Shown here: piece after piece, positions 12,702 to 51,340 of the stretch
Layout: the number at the start of each line of letters is the position of its first letter
How positions within the stretch are numbered: the first letter of the stretch is position 1
NCBI RefSeq assembly: GCF_964199755.1
Contig: NC_133896.1
Location: forward strand, 102,330,301-102,394,300
DNA from: Larus michahellis
Taxonomy: Eukaryota; Chordata; Aves; Charadriiformes; Laridae
Reading direction: 5' to 3'
DNA length: 64,000 nucleotides
Program-made: the position numbers and the translations under genes
Notes under the pieces: generated by a model
What the model was told of the DNA's origin: nothing
The model's input: only the letters and a program-made list of their open reading frames with translations
The model's database searches: none

Positions 12702-13400
12702 TCATAGAATCATCATAGAATGGTTTGGGTTGGAAGGGACCTTAAAGATCGTCTTATTCCAACCCCCCTGCCCTGGGCAGGGACACCTCCCACTAGACCA
12801 GGTTGCTCAAAGCCCCATCCAGCCTGGCCTTGAACACTTCCAGGGATGGGGCATCCACAACTTCTCTGGGCAACCTGTTCCAGTGCTTCACCACCCTCAG
12901 AGTTAAGAATTTCTTCCTAATATCTAATGTAAATCTACCCTCTTCCAGTTTAAAACTGTTACCCCTCGTCCTATCACTCCACTCTCTGATAAAGAGTCCC
13001 TCCCCATCTCTCCTGTAGGCCCCCTTTAGGTACTGGAAAGGCTGCTATAAGGTCTCCCCGGAGCCTTCCCTTCTCTAGGCTGAACAACCCAAGCTCTCTC
13101 AGCCTGTCTTCATAGGAGAGGTGCTCCAGCCCTCTCATCATCTTTGTAGCCCTCCTCTGGACCCGCTCCAACAGGTCCACGTCTTTCCTGTGTTGAGGGC
13201 TCCAGAGCTGGACACAGTACTCCAGGTGGGGTCTCAGGAGAGCGGAGGAGAAGGGCAGGATCACCTCCCTCAACCTGCTGGCAATGCTTCTTTTGATGTA
13301 GCCCAGGATACAGTTGGCTTTCTGAGCTGCGAGCGCATATTGCTGGCTCATGTTGAGCTTCTCATCCACCAACACCCCCAAGTCCTTCTCAGCAGGGCTG
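12702..13400 (-). mobile_element. CR1 LINE, 5'-truncated 3' fragment (longer copy)
   Basis: Starts on the plus strand with TCATAGAATCATCATAGAAT, the repeated 3' tail in reverse. The minus-strand reading includes [38 protein letters not shown] and [20 protein letters not shown], i.e. the C-terminal end of CR1 ORF2. It extends about 170 bp further 5' than the copy at 10821. The two copies have the same orientation but different truncation points, so they are separate insertions rather than one duplication. Confidence 0.94.
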
Positions 13401-15504
13401 TATGAGCAGCTGACAAATTTAGAAGAATGAAACCAATAGAAAATTGTGGCCATAACACGGCTTTCTCAAGCAGCTGTGTATCAAATGGTGCTTAAGTAGC
13501 TAAAGGAAATTTATGTTATTCAACTTATAAAAAACTAGATAGAATCTTATGACTAGTCCCAAACACATGTGAAGTTACTGTAGGTAAATCTTTCCTGAAA
13601 TGATGTGCCAGAGTTTTTACATTAAACAGCAAAGATACTTGCTTCTTAATTACACAGGTTTCTGCTAGGTGATTTTAGATTAAAGTGTGGAAAATGAGCA
13701 TGTCAGCTACTCCTTTAAAATTTAGTTTAACAAAAAACGGCTAAGAATTTCCTCACATAGATAATTCTTTTAATACCACATGGCGCTCTTCATGAATTGG
13801 TAATTCACTTCATATAGTTACAGTTACACAGAAAAATTGGACAGGTTTAAATGGAAATACTCTCTCTAACATCCCTTTATGAAAAAAAGAGTCTGTACAT
13901 AGATAGTAGTAATTTTTCAGTCTGTAACTTCATTAGTTTAAAAGCAAAAATCCAAACCACAGCTGTTCCCATACACCCAAATTGCTTAAATGGGACCATT
14001 TCATTTTAAATATTTTAAAGCCAATTCTGAAGGACACCACCCTTATAGGATCTAAATGCAAAACTCTTAGATTAAGAAAAGTGACTTTTTGAAGTCTGGG
14101 TGTGAGGAAACTGATACTGACAATGACATATTAATGTGTCGATGATAAATAAATACAAGAACTTAAAATTCGAACCACCAGCAATCTCATACATCGTTCT
14201 CCTTTTTTTTGGAAAGGATATAAAAGATTCAAATGTCAGAACTATAATGTCAGAACTGTTTATAATGTCAAGTGATGCTTGTTGCATACTCTTAGCATAT
14301 TCCATTGATCAAAACAGAACCTGGGGTAATAATTGCAGATGATGAAGCACACCTCATGTGCAAGTGGACATGGATTTGAAGTGGATTTGGAAGAAAAACA
14401 TTTTCATATCGAAGTCTTAATTGTTTCATTCAACCTGCACTGATCCGTGCACAAATTATTTTGCGTAAAGCTGATGCTTCTAACAGTAAGTAATATTGTG
14501 TGTGATGCCTGCAGGGTACTGTCAGCCAAGGAAAACTTATTCTTATGATATAATGTAGTAATTTGATAAAACTTGTTGCAGATGTGAGAGAGAATCCGTC
14601 CCAACAGAACCAGAGAGAACTATATTTTTCCCTTTGCAGACAGTTTGTGCAGTTCCATTTCAGCTCATAGAATTAATCTTGTTACTTATAAGGTAAGGTT
14701 GAATTGGTTTTAGTGTGGTTTCCTAAGAAAATGAGGCATATGTGATCATGCCATCTGTGAATGCCTTCCCTGCACTCCTAATAGCTACCACCTTCAGAGA
14801 CAATTGAAACCCAGTTTGAAAGAAGGTGTAAGTCTCAAAAAGACAGAATTGCTAAAAGCTTTTGCCCAGGTATCTGGGCAGGGCAAAGATACCTAAATTA
14901 GTACTGCCTGTCAGGGAAAGGCAGGAAGAATTCAGCTGTTAAACATTCTGTTTGGCAGAAGCCAGCAGTCCCATCAGCAGGAGCCAGTCACAATACCTCT
15001 TACCTTTTGTCACATTCAGCTGTGGCAAAGCGCCCAGTGAAAATGATTTGTTTTGAAAAGGAGGACATACAATTCAAAGGACACAAATCTCTGGGAAAAC
15101 AGAGTGCTTACAAAATTATTTGGTTTTAGCTATTCTTTGAACTTCTAATTTTACTCTACAAAGATAACAAAATTTCATTCCAGTGCTTCTATGAAAGGTT
15201 AATTTGAAAGCACAATAGCTGAACCCTGCCGAAACCATCAAAACATCACATTATTTCAATTTATAGATGTAACAAAATCAGGAGTGGTAGACAGTTTGTT
15301 AAGGTGGATGCACATCTCAGGAATATTAAGCTGAGGTGTTTGCCAGAGAACTTACTCCAATTTTGAGTACTGATTAGAGCAAATGTTAAGTTAATGCAAA
15401 CCAGGCTTCGTTCTTAATTGATCTGGGTAGAATCCAGTCCTACCTAGAAGTTTATGTCCATACTTTAAATAGCAGGTTAAAGAGCCCGTACTTAAAAGAA
15501 GAAA
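13401..15504. other. Intergenic region just downstream of GUCA1C
   Basis: AT-rich, no exon recognised. TRAT1 is the neighbour expected here from mammalian gene order, but I could not identify its tyrosine motifs. Confidence 0.5.
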
Positions 15505-36900: not shown

Positions 36901-39900
36901 TACATGTAAGGAAAACATGTATTGTCTGTCTGGGAGCCAGCTACATAACGGAGAGCTGATTGCAATCACAAGCAGTTATTGCAGTAGCAGGGAGGGTAGG
37001 TTAGAAATACAGCCTGGAGAAGCTGCTTCACCTCTTCATTCGGTAGTCTGTTTGGTCTTGTAATTTGGGCACTTTGTGTGATCACCTCATCTGAGTTACA
37101 TTTTCCTCTCTGCCATAGGTTCAATACAGTGCTTTAGACATCTGTTTATCTACGCTGCACTTCATCATCAGTTAAGTGCAGACCATATTTTCCTCTCTGC
37201 CTAACATTGCTGTAAAGACTTATTAACTTTGTATTTGAGCATACACGTATTTTCATATGCTTACATACAAGCACAGGACAAGCAAAGGACAGAAAAATAA
37301 CCAGTGAACTGCAAATTACATCTCATTTTCCAAATTGTTTCTTAACATTTTTTAAGTGCCTCTGGAAATTACTAACAAGAGTCCTACTCAAAGCCCTCAA
37401 AGCACAGTCCCACTTCTTCATCTCTAATGCACCATAATGGCAACCCTGTCCCCAGTAACAGTTTTGTGAGCAGAGCGCAAAGAAGAACCTGCAGGCTACA
37501 ACTCACAAACAAAGCAACAGCATGAGATTAAAGAAATGAAGAAAAGAAGGTTTATCTGGTTCAGGCCAAAGATATCAAACACTCGTTTAATGTATATATC
37601 TCCCTGTGGATCCAGACCTTGCAGGCCCAGGAGTTTCTTGAATTTGTGTAAAGTTGCCCAGATGGGCATTCTCTCATAAATTTGTTGTAATAATGGGGCA
37701 TCTCTGGGGCAGGGCCGTCACCTGGTAATGATTGTTTGGCGCCCATGTTGCTATGCAGAAAGTGTCTCTTTTTTTTTTTTCTATTCACATTTATTTCTCC
37801 GAGATTCAGAGTCTTGCTCATGACCTAACTCGGGCAAATACTGCATTTAAATGTCCATGGTAAACCTCTTACAATATAAGTATCTATTTTTATTTAGTAA
37901 CTATCTGTACTCATGTGAGATTACCTTTAATGCCCAATTCTAAACCAGATGGGATTTCGGAATATGCCTAAAGTAGAAGTAAAGAGAGCCATGCTTGAAT
38001 TTTAGTTCATGAAAACCCAGGCTCTCCCACTGACTACAAACACGCACGTTAGAAAAAGAAAAATGAAGAGGTCCTCAAAGTGGTTGACTTTGAGTTATCT
38101 GCAAACCACTATCAACACGTAAAAGTCTAATCATGGATTGACTGTAAGGAATAGCTACAATTTATGCTGTAAATAAGGATGGAAAAGGTTGGAATTGCAA
38201 AAAGACATGCCCATTATTACATTTTCTCTGTTGTAGGTGGATTAAGCCTTTCTAAAGACAGAGCCCTTTAGGCGCCTTCTTGAGGCACTTATCATGAGCA
38301 TGCTGTGTGGCATCTATTTCCTTGCTCTCAGCATGGATCCCCAGGAAAAAAAACACACAATTTTGGTTACCAGCCTCATGACAGAACCTGAGTGGAAGAG
38401 GAATCTTTTACAGTAACTTATTTAACAAGAATTGACTTGGTCTGATAAGCGAATTAAATACAAGTTTTCTTGCTGATGGTCAGTGCTGTAGTCCTGCTTT
38501 TGATTTTACAGCTTTCAGAAGCTGAATTCCTTCTTCCTCTGTATGGTCAGGGAAGGGGTTAGGTATCAGTTTTACTCCTGTACTGATTAACCTCTATACA
38601 AGGAGATGAGCGGCTCAGGAGCTTTACTATAGCACAGACAAATTCGGAGCTATAAATATCAGTGTAAAACTATAGGACATTAGAAAGGCAGGAACAAAAC
38701 ACTCCCACTCACTTATCCTTTTCATCTATAATCACATGGTGAAGTTAAAGAGCACAGTCTTGTGAGGTGCTGAGTGCCTCATGAAGAACGGCAACCTCCC
38801 TCCAGCCCAACTTAAGCCAGAGGGCAATTGATACCTTACAGGATCAGGTCAATTTTTGAGAAGGACTCTCGTACTCTTAACAGGCTATGCTACAGCTCTC
38901 TCCGTAAGGACATCATTAAGTTTAATATCATATACTTCTAAATGTGGCATACAAGTAATAAGGCGTGAACACACCTCAAATGCCCGTGAACTTGTGAAGA
39001 TGAAACAGGCAGATACAGACATCGCCATCATTTTAGCCAAAGCTGGTCCAGCAGGCAAAGCACATACAGCACAGCAAACTGGATGGTTGGTGTGTTGCCT
39101 TTCCCCCAGAGACCACCTCTGATCCCTAGAGCTGATGTGTCACCCCAGTGGGCATCTCGTCCGCAGGAGAGCACCGGCTGGAGCAGTGGGGTGAGTGAAA
39201 AGGAAGCAGGGACAAGGGAGGTGAAAGGAAATAAGCAGACAAACCTCTTGGGTGTGCACAGTCTGCCAAAAATCCTGAATTTTCTTCTTCAGCCATCATG
39301 CCACGCTCTTAAAGCAATGACCAGTCATTGTGTCAAACACCAGAGAAAGACAGGGCACCAGGAACATGACTTAAGCAGGCTGCAAACTCTACATGATACG
39401 ATCAGGTAACTCACCCAGTGCTAGTCATCCTTCCGCTTTTGTCTCTTCCACTTGGAAAATGACAGCGCTCTCGCATCTCTTCACGGGACCTTGTGCAAGC
39501 ACCGCTCACAGGATCCCACTTAGGCATAGGGAACTTTGGAGCTGCTCGCATCTGCTCATCCCTCTCCCCTCCCTCCTGTTTTCTGCCCCCGAAAAAAACC
39601 ACATTACTGCTACTTGCTTCCAAATAGCAAGTCTTGGGGAAGCGTACCTGTGGTCACTGTGGCACATGAGAGAGACCGCTGCACTGACTTAAAGATGGGG
39701 CCTCAAAAGCCAGATTTTTGTCAGATTTCGTACGTCCTGGTAAAAAGCTTCCAAGAGAATGTTAATTTAAAATCATTCCAGCTGTAATTCAATACCTGTT
39801 TTCAGTATCCCTTTAGTTTAATAACAATAACTGAAATACCTGTAAAAGACAGCAAAAATGCTTGAAGAAAAAGTGATCTGATTTATACTTCAGTCTGACA

Positions 39901-42900: not shown

Positions 42901-45900
42901 GTTAACTTTAAGTGGCCTTACTAGAACTGAAGGGAAAGAGGCCTCTCATACAGGGACAATCTGGGAGATCAATGAAATGTTCTGACTCCAGCTGGGAGAA
43001 ATAAATAGAAAAGAAACTCCTCAACTTTTGCATGCTGATAACCAGGGGAGGAAAGAGGGGGGAAAAACAAACAAATACTTAATTTTGAAATTTTAAAAAT
43101 ACTTGATTTTCAACTGTCTGTAGCTACCATTAGTTTAAATTTATAAAAAGTAATTTTCAATTTAAGTTAATAAAGTCTTGTTTCAAGAGTCCCCAGAGTA
43201 GTATTTAGTAGTATTAAGGGTAGCATTAACCCCCATCCCAACAACATTTTGATGCCACAGTCAGTTTTCATGAAGGATTTCAGCTTAGACAAATTGGATT
43301 TTTTACAGTTAATGATGTTACGTATACCTCCTTACACAACTCTAAATCCCAGCTTCCTGTTTTTATCTGCCTACACAGCACAGCTATTTGGAAGAACTTT
43401 GGATATTAAAACATCCTTTTTTCTGTTCTTTTTTCTTTTTTTCTCCCCCCCCTGCAATAAAATTCAGAGTTAAGCATTTTGGAAGAGGGAGAACTGAGCC
43501 AATGGAGAGAGACACCAGTAATCATTTAATTAAAAGGAGAGGCTGTCTTCCTTAATTAGGTACCATTGTTTTGATTCAACATGATCTCCTCCTTGGTGTC
43601 TGAAGTCTTCCCCAAACTGAGCCAGACACTGAGCAACTTGCATCTCCTAGCGGCTCCGGTTAGCAAAGCAAGGGTTTGTTGCGGTTGCTAAAGAGCACGG
43701 TGATATTTCTGTCTGGTGATTTATTTCCATCTCTTTATACCTGTCTCTTAATTTTGTTAATTTGATTTTTTGTTTGTTTTATATTTCACTTATTTCTTCC
43801 TCCTCCTGGAGGGCTGGTATCTACTTTTCTTATTTTTGCCTGTTCCTGTTTTTGACTGTACATTTTCCACTGCATTTATTGATTCTTTCCATTTATCTTT
43901 CAGAAGAAGTAACACAGTCTTCTGATTTCTGATCTATGCAATAATTCAAGTCTACCTTCCTTCCGTTGCTGAGCTTTAAAGGCTTTTTTTAAGGGGCGGA
44001 TACGGAAGCAAAACAGCTGTATCACTCTTTTACAAACTTTACAAATAAGAATAAAAATGGTGATAAAAAAATAAACTAAAATAAAAAAAAAACAAAACAA
44101 AAAACCAAAAACAAACCAGAAAAAGATTCATTGTAACTGTCCAAAAATGCAGCTCAATAGATCTGAAGAGACTTAGCTTTGGAAATGGTGGGGGAAATGA
44201 TTTTTAAAAAAGAGAGGGAAGACAGAAATAGTCACACAACCTTCCAATAGCGAAAGAAGGGACCATGAGGGTTTTAGGACTCTTTCCCAGTCCTACCTAG
44301 AAGGAATCAATCTTGTTTAGTAGATTTTTTTAAGAGCTCTTCTCTTAAGCAACCTAAATGACATTGAAAACAGTCCAGCAAATCCAGTTTTCTCAGTTTA
44401 AGTAATGCTGCACAGCTGCTGGAAACTAATGAGAAAAAAGCCAATTCCTGGTTACCCAACACTTCTTATTTGCTATCACTAGGCCAAAGTCCTCTACTCT
44501 TCATGCTAACACACACATTTTATGGTGAAAATAGTCCAAGAAAATTTCTTACCTGATTCTTGTCAAAGATGTGAAACACCTGCTCAACATATTGGTTCGC
44601 CTGAGGGGTCATGTCACGTAAACCCAGTATTTTCTTAAACTCATAGAGAGTAAGTTGCCCAGAGGGGCAGTATTTCAGAAATTTCTGGTACCATTGACTG
44701 TTGTCTATTGCAGCAACATCAACTGATTCCCCAGCACCCATCGCAGCATCTACCCTTCCTCTCCATCCATGCCACACTGTTTGCCTTTGCGCAGTGCTCC
44801 TATGTGCCCTGGCTCACCTCCAGCTAGAATACGCCAACAAACTAGGAGCTGCAAAATTACCATAAACCTCTTAAAGATCCCTGCAGATCTGGATTAGGCA
44901 AAAATAGAAACTGCACAGGATCATCCTTCATGATCTGTATGAACGCAAGCAGGCCTACGAATAGCTGGGTGCTTCTCTCTGGCCAGAGCTACTTCAACAC
45001 CTCAGTGTGTTCCCAGGGCTCAACCTGCTTCTGCAGAGGCTCTTACAAAACACGAAATTTGTGCTCATGTTGTGCAAGATCCTATGTCAGGTTTGCAGCC
45101 TCGCTACATGTGCCAGACTTACAGTGCTTTGCACTGAAAATGCTCTGGCTAAGATGACTTTGAATGCTTCCCAAACCGTGAAATGGCGTTGCTGTGCTTT
45201 GTTTGGAGGGCTTTGCATTCAGCCCCTTGGAAAACAGGGAGAATCATAAATCCTGCAAAATACTAACGATGTGTATGGTGGCTCTGGTGCGTGCCAGGAA
45301 GTGTTCATCCAGCTGAAGGAAGATATATAAACAGACCATACAGAATCATAACGTTAGCAGAAAACAGATATTCTGATAATGTCTCACAGGAAATATCAGG
45401 TTATTTAAATACAAAAACTGGTGAAATTCACAGACTAGAACCTGAGGAAAGGATATAAATCAGAGCTAGAGAAACTCAGGAAGGGGACTTTTTAACTGAA
45501 GGCAGACTCTTCATGACTCTCCAATTAAAAGTACGTACTTTGAATTTGACTTAACGTTTCATCTCAAGCAAGCATGTGATAAATACTTTTCATATAATCT
45601 TAAGGTAAGACTAACTTGGAACATGTCCTTATTTATATAATTCTGAAACAGTAGGAGTGTGGGGAGGCACTAAAAAGTAATCATATTGCTTCGTTTGCAT
45701 AATCCACTTAGCACACGCATTCTGTTCACAGTCTCAGGGATGGGTTTTCAGATAATACAGTGATATAAATTTGAATATTTAAAGCATGGCACTTTCAGTA
45801 TCATAGAAACTGGAAGCTAACAGAGGCACCTTCATCAATTTCAGGTCCAGGGAGAAGCTTGCAGCACCAAAGTCTGCTATTTGCTTGAAATCTCACTTCC

Positions 45901-48900
45901 TAAATGCCGAATACATGCTGCAAGAGATTAAATCTCAAATTCTTTTCCTCATCTAGTGATGTCAAAGACCTGGCAGTGATTTTTACCCATCATGGCAGTA
46001 GACAAAATCTGATCCTCTAACAGAAGAAAAAATAACATATAAACTTCAGAAAAAAAAAGAAAACTAACGCTGCAATTTTCAACTTCAAAATTTAATTGCA
46101 TTGCAGTGGGCAAGTTGTTATGACACTTCATAAGCTTGACTTACGTGTAGTTTCTTGTCTTGTTTTCATCTGGGATAGAGTTAATTTTCTTCCTAGTAGC
46201 TGCTGTGTTTTGGACTTAGTATGAGAATAATGTTGATAACACATACTGTTTTAGTTGTTGCTAAGTAATGCTTATATTAAGTCAAGGACTTTTTCAGCTT
46301 CCCATAGAAGCTGGGAGGGAGCACAGACAGGACAAGCTGGCCAAAGGAATATTCCATACCATAGACATCATGCTCAGTACAGGAATGGGGGTTGGCCAGG
46401 GGACAGGAATCCACGATCACTGCCTGGGATGGGCTGGGCAACCAATTACCAGGTGGTGAGCAATTGTATTGCATCACTCATTTTGTATTTTTGTATTTGT
46501 ATTTTACCATTATTATTATTATTTTCTCTTCCATTGCTGTTCTATTAAACTGTCTTTGTCTCAACCCATGAGGTTTTTTCCTTTTTCTCCCTCTTCTCCC
46601 TGTCCTACTCGGGGGGAGCGGGGAGTGAATGAATGGCTGTGTGGTTCTGGTCGCCGTCTGGGGTTAAACCACGACATTTCTGTCACAAAAAAAATTATAC
46701 CTGCTTATTCTGTTAAGAAAGAGTTAAATAGTTTCCATGGACCAAATCAGGTAGGTTGTTGTTCCACTGAAGAGGATGTAGAAACTTTGTTCATCTAACC
46801 TGCAAAGAGCTGAGTCATCTTGAAATAAGCTCCTTCAGCTCTAATAAGCGTGTAAAGGATTCTTGAGCTGGATTTCTGTATTAAGACCAGAATCCAGAAG
46901 ACAAATGAGTTTTGATTGTACTACACGTAAGTCACGCTCTTGTTAGAGAAGTGTCGATATAGTCAGAATGATCAAGAATAGTATGAGGGTACTGTTACGG
47001 AGAAAGCTGGTGCCAAGCTGTAAAAATCCCATATGCGTTAACGCTTGGCAAGCTGGTATACCAACAGCTCATTATTCTTCTTACGTAAATTGGTTCCCTA
47101 AGCCAGCCTGAAGCCGCTTAGAATGACTTCACAGGAAACATACGTTACAGCAATTAAATATACACATCATATCAAACTAAACAGATGTGGTGTGAATACC
47201 AAAGGGGAAGCTTATGAAATCCCGGCATGCGGCTCGAGAGGTCCTGGTCCTCGTTTGCCACAGGGTTTTCACTGAGGCTTTTACAAGACTTTATTTAAGG
47301 CAAGAGAAAAATCAAACTGAGCTACAGCTTATCTAGATGCTCTGTGTTGTATCTGACTCTTCTAGTTATACTGTTGCCGTTTCATTAAAAATTATACTGT
47401 TGCTATTTAATCAAAAATTGATTTTTTTTCCTATTATTAAAAATGAGAAAGTAAACCAACCAGGTACGACATTATGGTTTGTTTGATTAATTTCTCTAAG
47501 TTTTTAAGTGTTTCCAGACACTATAGTATACAAATAGTTTGGACAAGATAAAAAAACTTGCCAGCCTTTTATCTGGGAGTAGATGCCACATTCTTCGTAT
47601 TATTTCCCATTGCAAAGGATACAGACTAGGTATAGGTATAGGTATGTACAGACAGTCCCAGGTATATGACTATTCTAAATGTGCCATTCGACTCCTGCCT
47701 TCTAAAATAACTTTTCCTGGGCCTATTGCTGCAACAGCTCAATTAAGAAAATATACAATAAAATCTATGCCTCAGATTACAGTAGCTAATGGAGGATTGT
47801 TACAGCATCTCGCAGAACTGGAAATGAGTATCAGATCTTTAGTGGCAGCTCATTATTAAATAATGAAGTTATAAGCCAAGCATAAGCAGTTTTTATAGTG
47901 GATTTTATGAAGCCCTAAAGGCCAAGTCATTGTTTAATTTCATTAAAATGGGGGGAAGACTTCCAAATGGATAAAACATTGAAACATCTTTTTCTGTCTA
48001 ATGTGGAACATTAATTAAACAAGCTCTTCTGGGAACAGCAAAACAAAAGCCTAGATTTGTACAGACTCTGTCTTTTGTCCCGTGAATCTCCTCACCCTAG
48101 TACCCCAGCTCCACCCGGTATCCTCACCAGGCAAAAGGGAACAAGTGCCTGATTATTTTGCCAGCCAGCTGTTGCCTTAAACAATGAATAAAAACTGAAT
48201 TCTGCACGAGTGGTGCATTCATTATGGTTGTGTCCTTGCCACCCAGCTGCCGTTGTTATGAAAACTTTAGAAACTAATTATCTGAAATGCCTACTCTTTA
48301 CAATGTCATTGAAATATGCCAATTGATTTAAAAGTTGTGGGGAAACAGGACAAGGGGATCAGATCCTGATGGATAGGACTGTGTAACAGTTAAACTCTGA
48401 TGGGTGTATAACCTGACAAATTTAAGGGCATGTGTCTTAATATCCATCAGATAACTTGACCGAGCTACTGCCTGGGTGCTAAGCTAGTTGTACTGGGAGG
48501 GAGGCACTGTGATTAGTAACTTGTAAAAAAACAACCAACAAAAAGACAACACCACCCCTGCCCCCCCGCAAAAAACCCAAACCCACAAACCAACCTGAAA
48601 CTTCAGAAACCTCCCCACCTTTTTGGTTTGGAGCTCTTTCCCTATTTAGACAGGTCTCAGGTTCTTAATAATAACTTAATATATCTTAATATCGAATGAC
48701 TAGCTATTTTCGCAAAATAGTTTTACCTTACAGAAAGGTACTCTAAAGAAACTAGATATGGAAAATTATTCTTCACAAGTATATAAAAAGCAAACGCCAG
48801 TGTCTATATGCACATTCTCAATACAATAAGTAATATAAACACGTGAAGAAAACTGTTAGTTTTAATTACACGAAGTATTACAAGGACTACAAATTACAGA

Positions 48901-51190
48901 GACGGCTGAATGGAGTAGTGGTAAAGAGCAATCATAACTTGAAAGTTTGTGTCTAATTCGTTCTGCTCTCTCTGCCTGTGCTGGATGCACCGTTCACTGG
49001 GTACAATAGATATTTTCAAATATATAGCTCAATACCAATAGTAGTGGCAAGTTCTCCTAGGCATTTCTGTTGGTGCAAAATTATTTGAAGGGCGCTTTCT
49101 TCTCCCCTCTCCACACCCTCAGTTATTCCATGGCAAATACTTAGTTTCCCAATGTCTGTGGTTGGTCCTGCACTGGAATGCTATGATCTTGACAGAAGCC
49201 TGATTTTCAAGAAGTGTCCACATCACATTCCAGTTTTCTAAAAAAGTAACCAAAACAAGCTGCGGGCTCATTTTTTTGAAACATCCTCAAGTCACTAGTT
49301 GCTTTAGAAGTATTTGTCTAAAATAAATTTTGGAAATTTTTCCAAATATTTCTCAATAGCACTCAGATGTCAGGGGCTTTTTTTGCAATGCACATTAAAG
49401 CTAAACTGAAAAAGCTGTTAGATGAGCTCAAACATTGTCCATGTGCATTTTTCAGGAAAGTTAGCATTGTTAAAGCTTTACTGGGGAACATAATGCATCG
49501 ATTTATTAAATGAAAAGAACACAGTAAGCTGACAATTCCTGCCATTCAAATTTCATATTGATAGACTTGAAGTTTGCTCACCAACTGTAATTAGCACATG
49601 TATTGAGTTAGGTGATTCTACTTAATCAAATTCCATTCTATCTAACCATCTGGTAATTGGCATGGGGGAATAAAAGAGCGTGCAATGAGTCTGATTTTAT
49701 AGGAACATTACTTGAAGATTATGTAAGAAAGAATTACCTAATACCAAAAAAGCAAGCTGAATTGGGGATGGGGGTATGTGTGGAAAAAAGCATAACAAGA
49801 AAACTTGGTGTAACAATGGTACTGACTCTGGGAATTCTTAGTCTACTGGGCACCATACAAGAAATTACAAGTTGGATGTAAAAACACACAAGGTACCTCA
49901 TACTCTCAGCATTCTCTGAAACAAATATAATTCATTTAATAATAAAAAACAGAAAGGACGTTTCTGGAAATTGAAACTGTCTGGAGTAGTTCTGGCTACA
50001 ATTTGGACCAGTTTTAACCTGACACTAAAGTCATTAATATAATGTAATAACACATTTTTCATTATATCTCTGAATTCATTGAGATCAATGGCATAGGTAG
50101 AGAACACTAATGCTTTATTTTATTTTACTTTTTTAAAATAAGGTTTTAGACCACGATGGGCCCATCTGTTCTATTAGCTGGAAGCAGACTTTGATTGTGT
50201 AGTATTGGCAATTCAGCCTAAACCTTATTTCAGTCAAGGACAAACACTTTTGTAGCAATTACAGATGACTCTCCTCTTCTTTTGTAGCATTTGATAGAAA
50301 GTGTTATTTTGGCTTAAGGGGAAAATAACAAGGCACAGTCTTCTGGATGGGTCTCATGACTAGAAGGAACCTTTATGAACACCGATTTGGAAAATACAGC
50401 AATACAGCTAACAGCCCCTGGATGCCTTTGGGATGACCTGTGAGGTTAAGCAGTAAAATTCTGATGAGGGATCAAAACCAGACAAATGCATCTTTGGAAA
50501 AGGGGGATTGACCGATACCGAACTAAGCCGCAGAAGGTGCTTGGAATGAATCCAGCAGTATTTTATTTGGCAACAGAAGGAATCATGTTGTGTCTATGTT
50601 GCATATTCTTAAAACGTCCATAGTACCTATGGACCCAGCCAAACATTTACTGCTTTAAAAAAAGATTTTCCAAGCAGAGTCATATAAATGAAACTTTCAA
50701 TTATTAACAAACTCTAAAAATAATAATAAAATCTGGGTTTCAAAGATGAGAAATTGTTCAACATGTATTAGAATGACTGTATGCAATTTTCAAAGTGGCA
50801 AAATGTACCGGGAACAGAACATTCAAAATTGCTTGCCTGCCACTCCTGTTTATTTGCGGGTAGTTTTCTATCGAATCACCTCTGAATCACTTCCATTACC
50901 TCTGAATAGTCAGCATTGCCAGCCCTCTGAGACGTGTCGCTGAATGCATCAAATGATACATCCATAAGAAAACCAGCAAGTTAAGCATGAGTTCTTACCT
51001 GATTCATGTCAAATGTGTGAAATACTTGTTCAACATAGCTGTTAGCTTCTGGAGTAAGTCCATGTAGATCCAGGACGTGTTTAAATTCATGCAGACAAAG
51101 TTGTCCAGATGGGCACTCCTTCATAAATTTTGTGTACCAGTGGTGAATTTCCATAGCATTAATATCATCCGCTGATCCAGCAGCACCCAT
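15847..51190 (-). CDS. GUCA1C: GUCA1C-like guanylate cyclase activating protein (GCAP3), whole gene, 4 coding exons
   Basis: Neuronal calcium sensor of the GCAP family. In photoreceptors these bind membrane guanylate cyclases (RetGC) and activate them when Ca2+ falls, restoring cGMP after light. The model is exon 1A or 1B joined to exons 2 (21863-22012), 3 (19015-19102) and 4 (15847-15977). It gives 186 residues from 1A or 185 from 1B; human GUCA1C is about 209, and the difference is in the C-terminal tail. Seen directly: MGxxxS myristoylation start, degenerate EF-1 with the family CPSG motif, and complete EF-2, EF-3 and EF-4 loops. All junctions are GT/AG with phases 0, 0 and 1, the usual GCAP exon layout. 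The central exon ([26 protein letters not shown]) resembles GUCA1C more than GUCA1A or GUCA1B. Odd: three tandem first exons share one body. Family call is firm; isoform use is inferred. Confidence 0.92.
15978..19014 (-). other. GUCA1C intron 3
   Basis: About 3.0 kb between exon 4 and exon 3, bounded by GTAAG and CAG. AT-rich. Open frames on both strands (for example 17220-17639) match no family I recognise and look random. I see no repeat with a clear family here. Confidence 0.8.
19015..19102 (-). CDS. GUCA1C: GUCA1C exon 3 (linker and start of EF-4)
   Basis: 88 nt encoding [20 protein letters not shown] and FQKIDVNND, plus the first base of a split Gly codon. The acceptor is CTTCCTTCAG/GCAATT and the donor GATG/GTAAGAAC. 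The EF-4 loop starts here (D-V-N-N-D-G) and is completed by exon 4. The MSAEEFTN segment matches the GCAP pattern between EF-3 and EF-4. Length and phase match the equivalent human exon. Confidence 0.93.
19103..21862 (-). other. GUCA1C intron 2
   Basis: About 2.8 kb between exon 3 and exon 2. It contains a short imperfect tandem repeat at about 20026-20088 and a TATG/CATA-rich stretch near 19850-19890. No gene seen. Confidence 0.8.
20026..20088. repeat. Imperfect tandem repeat, about 3 x 21-26 bp
   Basis: Three successive units built around TTATATTTAG followed by a few bases and AAACCT, in intron 2 of the GUCA1C gene. Low-copy local duplication with no known function. Confidence 0.6.
21863..22012 (-). 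CDS. GUCA1C: GUCA1C exon 2 (rest of EF-2, complete EF-3)
   Basis: 150 nt, 50 codons, phase 0 at both ends. Reads [16 protein letters not shown], then [20 protein letters not shown], then ELLSIFT. The first residues complete the EF-2 loop (ligands D-x-N-x-D-G-x-x-D-x-x-E across the junction). The EF-3 loop [12 protein letters not shown] has all canonical ligands. The length is identical to the human exon. The acceptor is TCTCTTAG/GATGG and the donor ACG/GTAAGG. The polypyrimidine tract is an uninterrupted CT repeat. This exon is common to all possible first-exon isoforms. Confidence 0.95.
22015..22029. repeat. (GA)n microsatellite, acting as the polypyrimidine tract of exon 2
   Basis: About seven AG units on the plus strand directly against the exon 2 acceptor. 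Read on the gene strand it is a pure CT run before TTAG/GAT, preceded by an oligo-T stretch. Confidence 0.85.
25094..25109. repeat. Poly(A) run
   Basis: Sixteen consecutive A. I checked upstream for a retrocopied gene body and recognised none. Confidence 0.85.
28249..28833 (+). mobile_element. Solo LTR of an avian endogenous retrovirus, in GUCA1C intron 1
   Basis: 585 bp beginning TGCATGCTGGTTTTGGC and ending GGGGTTAAACCACAACA, with TG/CA termini. It is flanked by a perfect 5-bp target duplication ACATG (28244-28248 and 28834-28838). The 3' part has TCTTTATCTCAACCCACGA followed by a C-rich and G-rich stretch, as in the R/U5 end of this family. A 5-bp duplication is usual for ERVL-type integrations. 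No internal gene remains, so it formed by LTR-LTR recombination. It lies antisense to GUCA1C. Confidence 0.85.
30873..30902. repeat. Exact 15-bp tandem duplication
   Basis: GTTAACAAGACTTAA occurs twice without spacer. Likely a recent slippage duplication. Confidence 0.85.
31358..31412. repeat. Tandem repeat, about 4 x 12-13 bp
   Basis: Units of the form GTAGTGCTCACTA with drift in later copies. Intron 1 of GUCA1C; no function evident. Confidence 0.7.
33645..33664. repeat. (TTTG)n microsatellite
   Basis: Five TTTG units. Intron 1 of GUCA1C. Confidence 0.85.
37556..37746 (-). pseudogene. Decayed third copy (1C) of the GUCA1C first exon
   Basis: Begins [11 protein letters not shown] (myristoylation motif still present) and continues [14 protein letters not shown], clearly a GCAP EF-1 segment. 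Right after GQL, 4 nt are missing relative to copies 1A and 1B (5 nt instead of 9 before the His codon), so the frame is lost. In the shifted frame GCAP-like sequence continues ([12 protein letters not shown], then [10 protein letters not shown]). The expected donor reads CAG/ATAAAC where the other copies have CAG/GTAAG, so the splice site is gone. The first Ca2+ ligand of the EF-2 loop, Asp, is replaced by Gly. Without the deletion it would be 65 codons. Three independent defects make a functional exon very unlikely, though the promoter-like block upstream is still recognisable. Confidence 0.85.
37747..44552 (-). other. Between exon copies 1C and 1B
   Basis: Apart from the promoter-like block at 37861-37905, no exon seen. 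In particular I found no second copy of exons 2-4. A GC-richer stretch lies at about 39080-39600. Confidence 0.55.
37861..37905 (-). promoter_or_regulatory. Relic promoter block upstream of decayed exon 1C
   Basis: The coding strand has TGTAAGAGGTTTA (37861-37873), identical over 13 bases to the block upstream of 1A, about 115 bp before the 1C ATG. It is preceded by an A/T-rich TAAATAAAAATA stretch. No CTAATCC is present. Its survival next to a broken exon suggests either recent decay of the exon or a retained promoter without a useful coding exon. Confidence 0.4.
44553..44741 (-). CDS. GUCA1C: GUCA1C-like first coding exon, copy 1B (intact alternative)
   Basis: Encodes 63 residues starting MGAGESVDV (myristoylation consensus kept). 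It has [20 protein letters not shown] around EF-1 and ends [12 protein letters not shown] before GTAAGA, phase 0 like copy 1A. It is open throughout, with a valid donor and an intact first part of the EF-2 loop. By hand alignment about 37 of 63 positions match 1A, with changes concentrated in residues 9-17 and kept residues at structural positions. That argues for an old duplicate kept under selection rather than a recent or dead copy. The start has G at -3 and +4. Two short out-of-frame upstream ATGs (44770 and 44766) lie in the presumed leader. It sits inside the intron between 1A and exon 2. No transcript evidence is available to me. Confidence 0.85.
44863..44912 (-). promoter_or_regulatory. 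Putative core promoter of first exon 1B with a CRX/OTX-type site
   Basis: The coding strand has CTAATCC (44891-44897), a consensus site for the photoreceptor homeodomain factors CRX and OTX2. It is followed about 17 bp later by TTTAAGAGGTTTA (44863-44875), the core shared with copies 1A and 1C, about 122 bp upstream of the 1B ATG. A T-rich run lies just upstream of the CTAATCC. A retinal promoter fits GCAP biology, but a 7-base site alone is weak evidence. Confidence 0.5.
46156..46676 (+). mobile_element. Solo LTR of the same endogenous retrovirus family, between first exons 1A and 1B
   Basis: 521 bp from TGTCTTGTTTTCATCTGGG to GGGGTTAAACCACGACA, with a perfect 5-bp duplication TTTCT (46151-46155 and 46677-46681). 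It contains TATTCCATACCATAGACATC, an ATTATTATT run, then CTATTAAACTGTC and TTTGTCTCAACCCATGAG (ATTAAA as likely poly(A) signal). It inserted after the 1A/1B duplication, or at least into only one unit, and lies antisense to the gene. Confidence 0.87.
46682..50998 (-). other. Between exon copies 1B and 1A
   Basis: No exon recognised. The frame at 47539-47859 (plus, 106 codons) matches no known family. A C/A-rich low-complexity patch lies at about 48525-48595. Confidence 0.5.
47629..47646. repeat. Short (GGTATA)n repeat
   Basis: Three GGTATA-type units in a region without other recognised features. Confidence 0.7.
50999..51190 (-). CDS. GUCA1C: GUCA1C-like first coding exon, copy 1A (most upstream)
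   Basis: Encodes 64 residues starting MGAAGSADD, a consensus N-myristoylation start (Gly2, Ser6). The EF-1 region reads [13 protein letters not shown]; the Cys-Pro in the loop makes EF-1 unable to bind Ca2+, as in all GCAPs, and this region contacts the cyclase. It ends [12 protein letters not shown] and is followed by GTAAGA. The junction falls inside the EF-2 loop (D-M-N-Q then D-G from exon 2), phase 0. The [14 protein letters not shown] stretch is the most GCAP3-like of the three copies, so this is probably the ancestral first exon. An in-frame ATG lies 4 codons upstream (51202); initiation there would bury Gly2 and prevent myristoylation. The ATG at 51190 has G at both -3 and +4 and is preferred. 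Confidence 0.9.
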
Positions 51191-51287
51191 AGCATCAAAC
51201 ATACCAGGTAACCTTTTTCAGTATTTAGTCGTTCTTGCTTCCCAACAATGATCATTCAAACACCAAATCTACCTTTGAGAGCTACTT

Positions 51288-51340
51288 TAAACCTCTTACA
51301 GATCACTACCAATATAGAATAGGTAAATATAGCACCCTAG
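51288..51340 (-). promoter_or_regulatory. Putative core promoter of first exon 1A
   Basis: The coding strand carries TGTAAGAGGTTTA (51288-51300), about 100 bp upstream of the 1A ATG, with a CTATATTTA stretch about 33 bp further upstream. The T/A-rich element followed by the conserved core at that spacing resembles a TATA box and start region. The same core occurs upstream of copies 1B and 1C. The position that reads CTAATCC in 1B reads CTATTCT here. Function is inferred from conservation between the copies only. Confidence 0.5.

Follow-up and report, generated by a model that had tools for sequence, protein, structure and literature searches.

Tandem alternative first exons before a single GUCA1C body predict two GCAP3 isoforms in Larus michahellis

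The GUCA1C (GCAP3) gene of this bird is, in all likelihood, a variable-first-exon gene, in which 1A, 1B and 1C are first exons arrayed in tandem ahead of one constant body, under separate predicted core promoters, and whose products are GCAP3-A and GCAP3-B. Such a gene would operate in the manner of UGT1A. Three tandem first exons, with one core promoter apiece, would stand before exons 2-4, and the promoter that is chosen would set which first exon is spliced to the common exon 2. GCAP3-A and GCAP3-B would then share a Ca2+-sensing half (EF-3 and EF-4) and differ in an N-terminal module made up of the myristoylated N-terminus, EF-hand 1, and the EF-2 entering helix with the first four loop positions, while 1C would have worked likewise until its frameshift and loss of the donor. 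On this model the promoters would be active, both forms would be expressed in this bird, and the two would regulate the cyclase differently. The first-pass annotation of this DNA had read the copies as alternative first exons on a shared body, and this interpretation is supported by the single body found in the assembly, by the duplicated promoter-like elements, and by same-species protein pairs with identical bodies in four species. The array that it described as two exons has three copies, the third of which, 1C, is dead here; the range given there left out 1C and the upstream element that the copies share.

Organization of the locus

The window, a 64-kb stretch at C1:102330301-102394300 of a 1.405-Gb assembly, carries GUCA1C on its minus strand (Table 1), with exon-1 copies spaced about 6.4 and 7.0 kb apart. 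The established layout of EF-hands was used to place the exon boundaries within the protein. Exon 1 encodes the MG start, EF-hand 1, the EF-2 entering helix and the first four positions of the EF-2 loop, the rest of which is supplied by exon 2. The peptides of 1A and 1B are both open, begin with a myristoylation-type MG, contain CPSG in EF-hand 1, end with FDxNQ inside the EF-2 loop, and are followed by phase-0 donors of the CAG/GTAAG type, so that coordinates, frames, motifs and donors are all as first annotated. Both donors also fit the single set of exons 2-4, as had been claimed, giving in-frame, stop-free proteins of 186 residues with 1A and 185 residues with 1B.

Table 1. Features of the GUCA1C locus, in window positions; the slash marks the exon end at a donor
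Feature	Position	Strand	Remarks	Basis
Promoter-like block of 1A	51288-51332	minus	45 bp; TAAGAGGTTTA at 51298-51288	
In-frame upstream start of 1A	51191-51202	minus	MFDA before MG; ATG 12 bases before the 1A start	
First exon 1A (class A)	51190-50999	minus	64 codons; donor CAG/GTAAGAAC	tblastn and donor inspection
Promoter-like block of 1B	44863-44907	minus	TAAGAGGTTTA at 44873-44863	
First exon 1B (class B)	44741-44553	minus	63 codons; donor CAG/GTAAGAAA	tblastn and donor inspection
TAAGAGGTTTA 5′ of 1C	37861-37871	minus	remainder of block not recognisable	
Broken first exon 1C (class C)	37746-37556	minus		tblastn match split over two frames
Common exon 2	22012-21863	minus	remainder of EF-2 loop, start of EF-3	
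Common exon 3	19102-19015	minus		
Common exon 4	15977-15847	minus	stop codon included	
Open frame	12974-13465	minus	presumably resembles a remnant of a CR1-type retrotransposon reverse transcriptase	

The third copy, 1C, has a net 4-nt deletion after CPSGQL and has lost its donor, which reads CAG/ATAAAC. Its two pieces are 87.5 and 87.9% identical to the class C exon of Rhinoptilus, and intact class C exons are present in relatives, unlike the copy here, which is predicted to be dead in this bird through frameshift and donor loss.

Identity as GUCA1C was assigned by similarity. The best PDB matches of 1B joined to the body are GCAP1 2r2i (5.8e-73) and GCAP3 2ggz (1.7e-70), while 1A with part of exon 2 also matches GCAP1 2r2i best. 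Pfam EF-hand matches are found in both the 1A and the 1B form, and the top bird proteins, among the best matches listed, are named guanylyl cyclase-activating protein 3. The predicted proteins are closest to GCAPs, start with MG and carry CPSG in EF-hand 1, which places them in the GCAP (GUCA1) family, and the annotated proteins closest to them are GCAP3/GUCA1C, which assigns the gene to GUCA1C. Vertebrate GUCA1C/GCAP3 is described in the available part of PMC10061024 as having four coding exons and large introns, as in this gene.

Upstream of the MG start, 1A has a second in-frame ATG (Table 1); a protein begun at this codon would have its myristoylated glycine masked. Comparable MFD[AT] extensions appear in annotated proteins from a turtle and from other birds, and an Anolis record has a different one, MLII. 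Two kiwi records marked LOW QUALITY have Arg in place of the inner Met of an MFD-type start. The alternative placement of 1B as an internal exon downstream of 1A was rejected by eye, for 1B only: the sequence just 5′ of its ATG is purine-rich, and splicing at the nearest AG (ggtag) would be out of frame.

Upstream promoter-like elements

Each first exon is preceded by a copy of the 11-mer TAAGAGGTTTA, which occurs three times in the 64 kb when both strands are counted, at distances of 108 (1A), 132 (1B) and 125 (1C) bases from the start codon. No shared 11-mer of any kind arose among the three 300-bp upstream stretches in 3000 mononucleotide shuffles. In front of 1A and 1B the 11-mer lies in a longer block that aligns without gaps at 35 of 45 positions; its score of 40 compares with at most 29 in 300 dinucleotide shuffles of the 300 bp upstream, and with at most 34 in 200 shuffles of 1500 bp. 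The likeness upstream of 1C is short, with the 1A/1C score reached in 2 of 300 shuffles and the 1B/1C score in 23 of 300, and over 1500 bp there is no excess (reached in 69 and 174 of 200 shuffles, respectively). The 500 bp downstream of 1A and 1B are no more alike than shuffled sequence. When direct repeats of at least 30 bases were sought at 36.5-52.5 kb, A/T-rich runs aside, the only ones recovered were exon 1, start region included, and the upstream block, which was 76% alike over 50 bases in this comparison. Because the element is kept amid flanks that cannot be aligned, these data suggest a core promoter for each first exon, perhaps with a TATA-like box. TAATCY, which we take to be a CRX-like motif, lies, possibly by chance, within 180 bp of the start codon of each first exon.

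A role for TAAGAGGTTTA as a general GCAP promoter motif was considered and rejected: three other GCAP-like first-exon loci (about 3.2 kb), named GCAP1-L-like (L012), GUCA1A-like (L011) and GUCA1B-like (L013) from their sequence in this analysis, do not contain the complete 11-mer. L012 and L013 do have 7- or 8-base fragments of it, at a distance from their first exons.

Divergence and constraint of 1A and 1B

The two intact exons are identical at 38 of 63 aligned residues, against the roughly 37 of 63 first counted. They differ at 57 of 189 nucleotides, with 29 of 63 third positions and 14 of 63 first and second positions each affected, and when 57 differences were placed at random the peptides retained a mean of 26.8 and a maximum of 35 identical residues in 2000 trials. 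The residue match is not due to chance, since 38 observed identities compare with at most 35 under random placement. By the NG86 method dN is 0.26 and dS 1.36 between the copies, where dS is near saturation and both lineages are pooled.

The two exons have not changed at the same pace. Whereas 1A is nearly unchanged (63 of 64 residues identical to Balearica and 61 of 64 to Ficedula), 1B is identical at no more than 52 of 63 residues to any of 10 other bird class B rows, and its end branch of 0.20 is the longest among bird B exons in the exon-1 tree. The body is identical to that of Cuculus, the best of 10 compared, at 118 of 122 residues. An exon remains free of stops after 20 random substitutions with a frequency of 0.36, which is not rare. 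1B is intact, but it evolves faster than 1A here, and the constraint on it may be weak. Its long branch and low identity, together with the death of 1C, would be expected if only 1A were used in this bird and 1B were a leftover of an earlier array that is being lost, as 1C already has been; we nevertheless regard this as unlikely, as the frame of 1B is open, its donor strong, its start codon well placed in context and its promoter block still present, and as intact class B exons are annotated in 10 other bird rows, although annotation itself selects for intact proteins. We retain the model in which both 1A and 1B serve as first exons.

Exon-1 classes in relatives and age of the array

Relatives were gathered with three protein homolog searches, of which the best 120 of 488, 515 and 257 matches were considered and 135 proteins fetched. 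These come from 90% clusters whose members are hidden, so that the classes described here are those of the cluster entries. Among the matches listed, three classes of exon-1 peptide (A, B and C) occur on GCAP3 bodies. Class A is found in Ficedula (a cluster of 131 members), Balearica, Aegotheles, kiwis, Caretta, Tiliqua and Anolis sagrei X1. Class B, the class of the 1B exon, is found in Accipiter X2, Egretta, Gavia, Athene X2, Anas, Falco X2 and Strix X3 among birds, and in Pogona X3, Anolis sagrei X3, Zootoca and snakes among squamates. Class C is found in Strix aluco X2, Cuculus X6, Cariama, Rhinoptilus, Manacus and Bucco, with C-like forms in turtles and lizards. The 'isoform Xn' names denote annotation models, which may not all rest on reads.

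Bodies of 122 residues, compared in those of the 135 proteins in which the junction motif was found, form eight identical sets. Four of these are same-species pairs with different exon-1 classes, namely Strix aluco (B and C), Egretta garzetta (B and C, the C record being partial), Pogona vitticeps (B and C) and Anolis sagrei (A and B), while the other four join different species or near-copies. Crocodylus porosus also has two exon-1 versions, on bodies identical at 117 of 122 residues and differing only near the end. Two UniRef models, from Otus and Crocodylus (P0014, P0035), seem to combine segments from two distinct first exons, apparently an artefact of annotating such an array. A goose record (Anser isoform X4, P0117) bears a further N-terminus, unlike GCAP exon 1, on the goose GCAP3 body; no convincing counterpart of its first exon was found in the 64-kb window.

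The exon-1 tree was built from 57 rows and 65 columns, comprising 55 rows hand-picked from the 135 fetched proteins and the two window exons, with one chimeric crocodile model left out; the rows had been assigned to classes by eye beforehand, in part from the very sequences used in the tree. Here, bird class B joins squamate class B with support of 92/83. Class A birds join a turtle (86/75) and then the Anolis and elephant shark rows (94/82), while the relations of class C are not settled by the 65 columns. Further placements are the elephant shark inside class A, the platypus among squamate class C, and Tiliqua outside class A. Single residues were also compared. Asn15 is present in all bird B (11/11) and squamate B (5/5) exons and is the commonest residue in no A or C group, while Ile59 is present in 10 of 11 bird B and 5 of 5 squamate B exons but also in 7 of 7 bird C. 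In the body tree, which covers 52 of the 57 bodies, rows group mostly by taxon, with squamates forming one group, birds showing two label changes and turtles three. Mapping exon-1 class onto this tree requires 16 changes over 41 rows, a number that depends on the choice of rows, which were picked to show all classes.

Because bird class B groups with squamate class B, the array probably predates the split between birds and lizards; its presence in lizards likewise makes it probably older than birds. That split lies some 280 million years back. The exon-1 copies could instead have arisen independently in birds and squamates and the array be convergent, and the AU test leaves room for this: among the 65 columns, neither bird exons alone as one clade (p 0.136; 0.238 under LG+G4) nor squamate exons alone as one clade (p 0.064; 0.081 under LG+G4) is rejected, and the elephant shark and platypus placements show the limits of the tree. 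When the two clade constraints were imposed jointly, in a test devised after the tree was seen, AU rejected them (p 0.027) and SH did not (p 0.067); with this result, the 92/83 support for a joint class B and the Asn15 shared by its bird and squamate members, we hold convergence to be distinctly unlikely. Other single-clade constraints gave p values of 0.078 (bird A and B), 0.347 (class C) and 0.292 (class A). An array that predates the split is the better reading, though short of proof on 65 columns.

A single body in the assembly

In searches of the assembly GUCA1C exon 2 was found once, whether the query was 1A plus part of exon 2 (15 matches) or a complete class C protein (20 matches), and the class C search found one GUCA1C exon 3 and one exon 4. 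The first exons of GUCA1C recovered in the assembly searches, which included one with 1B (8 matches), were 1A, 1B, and 1C in two pieces. The remaining matches are less similar EF-hand exons elsewhere; they include closely spaced pairs of GCAP-like exons 1 and 2 on C1 (near 86-90 kb) and on C25 (near 6.68-6.70 Mb). A second exon 2-4 body for GUCA1C, which would have meant separate genes, was not found among the best candidates in the 1.4-Gb assembly; the searches score best candidates only, and the assembly may be incomplete. In this assembly there is thus a single known body to which 1A, 1B or the broken 1C could be spliced, and the locus, as predicted from its exons, combines at least two homologous first exons, compatible donors and one common body. 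That there are instead two or three separate tandem GUCA1C genes, with the extra bodies outside the window or missing from the assembly, would accord with the spacing of the copies, as after tandem duplication, but is highly improbable in view of the single exons 2, 3 and 4 among the best candidates and of the identical bodies that relatives carry under different first exons.

Discussion

A gene with alternative first exons on one body is of a known kind. In the available text on UGT1A (PMC10814044), tandem first exons with their own promoters are described, the 5′-most being spliced to the common exon 2, and pseudo-first exons are present. The array here likewise has tandem first exons, one of them broken, and is predicted to be spliced on the same pattern. 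In contrast, UGT1A is an unrelated enzyme with nine functional first exons and common exons 2-5, whereas GUCA1C, a calcium sensor of phototransduction, has two or three, and its promoters are predicted. KChIP (KCNIP) genes belong to the same neuronal calcium sensor superfamily and use alternative promoters and first exons to place variable N-termini on a common core, according to the accessible part of PMC3973911. However, the KChIP core holds all four EF-hands and the alternative exons precede it, while in GUCA1C EF-hand 1 and part of EF-hand 2 lie within the swapped exon, whose alternatives are homologous duplicates. Alternative first exons are not mentioned in the available portions of the GUCA1C accounts of Lamb and Hunt (2018) and Gesemann and Neuhauss (2023), and no description of them for GUCA1C was found in the literature searched, including PMC6170504, which was mostly open-access and in part available as excerpts. 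The swapping of a cyclase-binding EF-hand 1 module of a GCAP therefore appears to be undescribed in that literature. The novelty first claimed stands to this extent, though GCAP3 isoforms of this type are already in public protein annotation.

The module that would be exchanged corresponds to the part of the protein that meets the cyclase. GCAP1 binds RetGC mainly through EF-hands 1 and 2, whereas Ca2+ sensing depends most critically on EF-3/4 (PMC8329130, in part). Binding by GCAP1 requires Lys23, activation is influenced by Met26, and a G2A mutant remains in the inner segment (PMC5811540, in part). In the alignment to GCAP1 chain 2na0, 1A has Thr and 1B has Gln opposite Lys23, and opposite Met26 1A has Met and 1B has Leu. 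Among relatives, the Lys23 position is Gln in 6 of 11 bird B rows, with Lys in some others, and Ser in 7 of 7 bird C rows. Because these two positions differ, GCAP3-A and GCAP3-B may differ in cyclase binding.

Comparisons of GUCA1C across species in which the first-exon classes are not matched could give false signals of selection or loss. Positive selection on owl GUCA1C has been reported (PMC7566403), where the accessible table row for the gene gives 190, a value that, taken as residues, equals the class A protein with its MFD extension. Loss of GUCA1C in kiwi is reported in section 12 of PMC10061024, and the available text of Wu et al. (2016) states that GUCA1C transcripts were not found in five Strigidae owls (PMC5028738). 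The missing owl transcripts weigh against the proposed isoforms. All three observations may have been affected by which first exon was compared.

Sauropsids have lost the second visual cyclase, and compensation by more GCAP genes has been proposed (PMC10061024, in the part available). With alternative first exons, GCAP diversity would be larger than gene counts reveal, and the addition would fall in the cyclase-binding part of the protein. We suggest tentatively, as a broader proposal that falls a little short of an even prospect, that sauropsid GUCA1C has retained promoter-selected N-terminal cassettes over some 280 million years, by which the EF-hand 1 module that binds the cyclase is exchanged and the Ca2+-sensing half stays constant. 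If this is true, the number of GCAPs in birds and lizards exceeds their gene counts, and cone classes or pineal cells could tune Ca2+ feedback on the single visual cyclase, GC-E.
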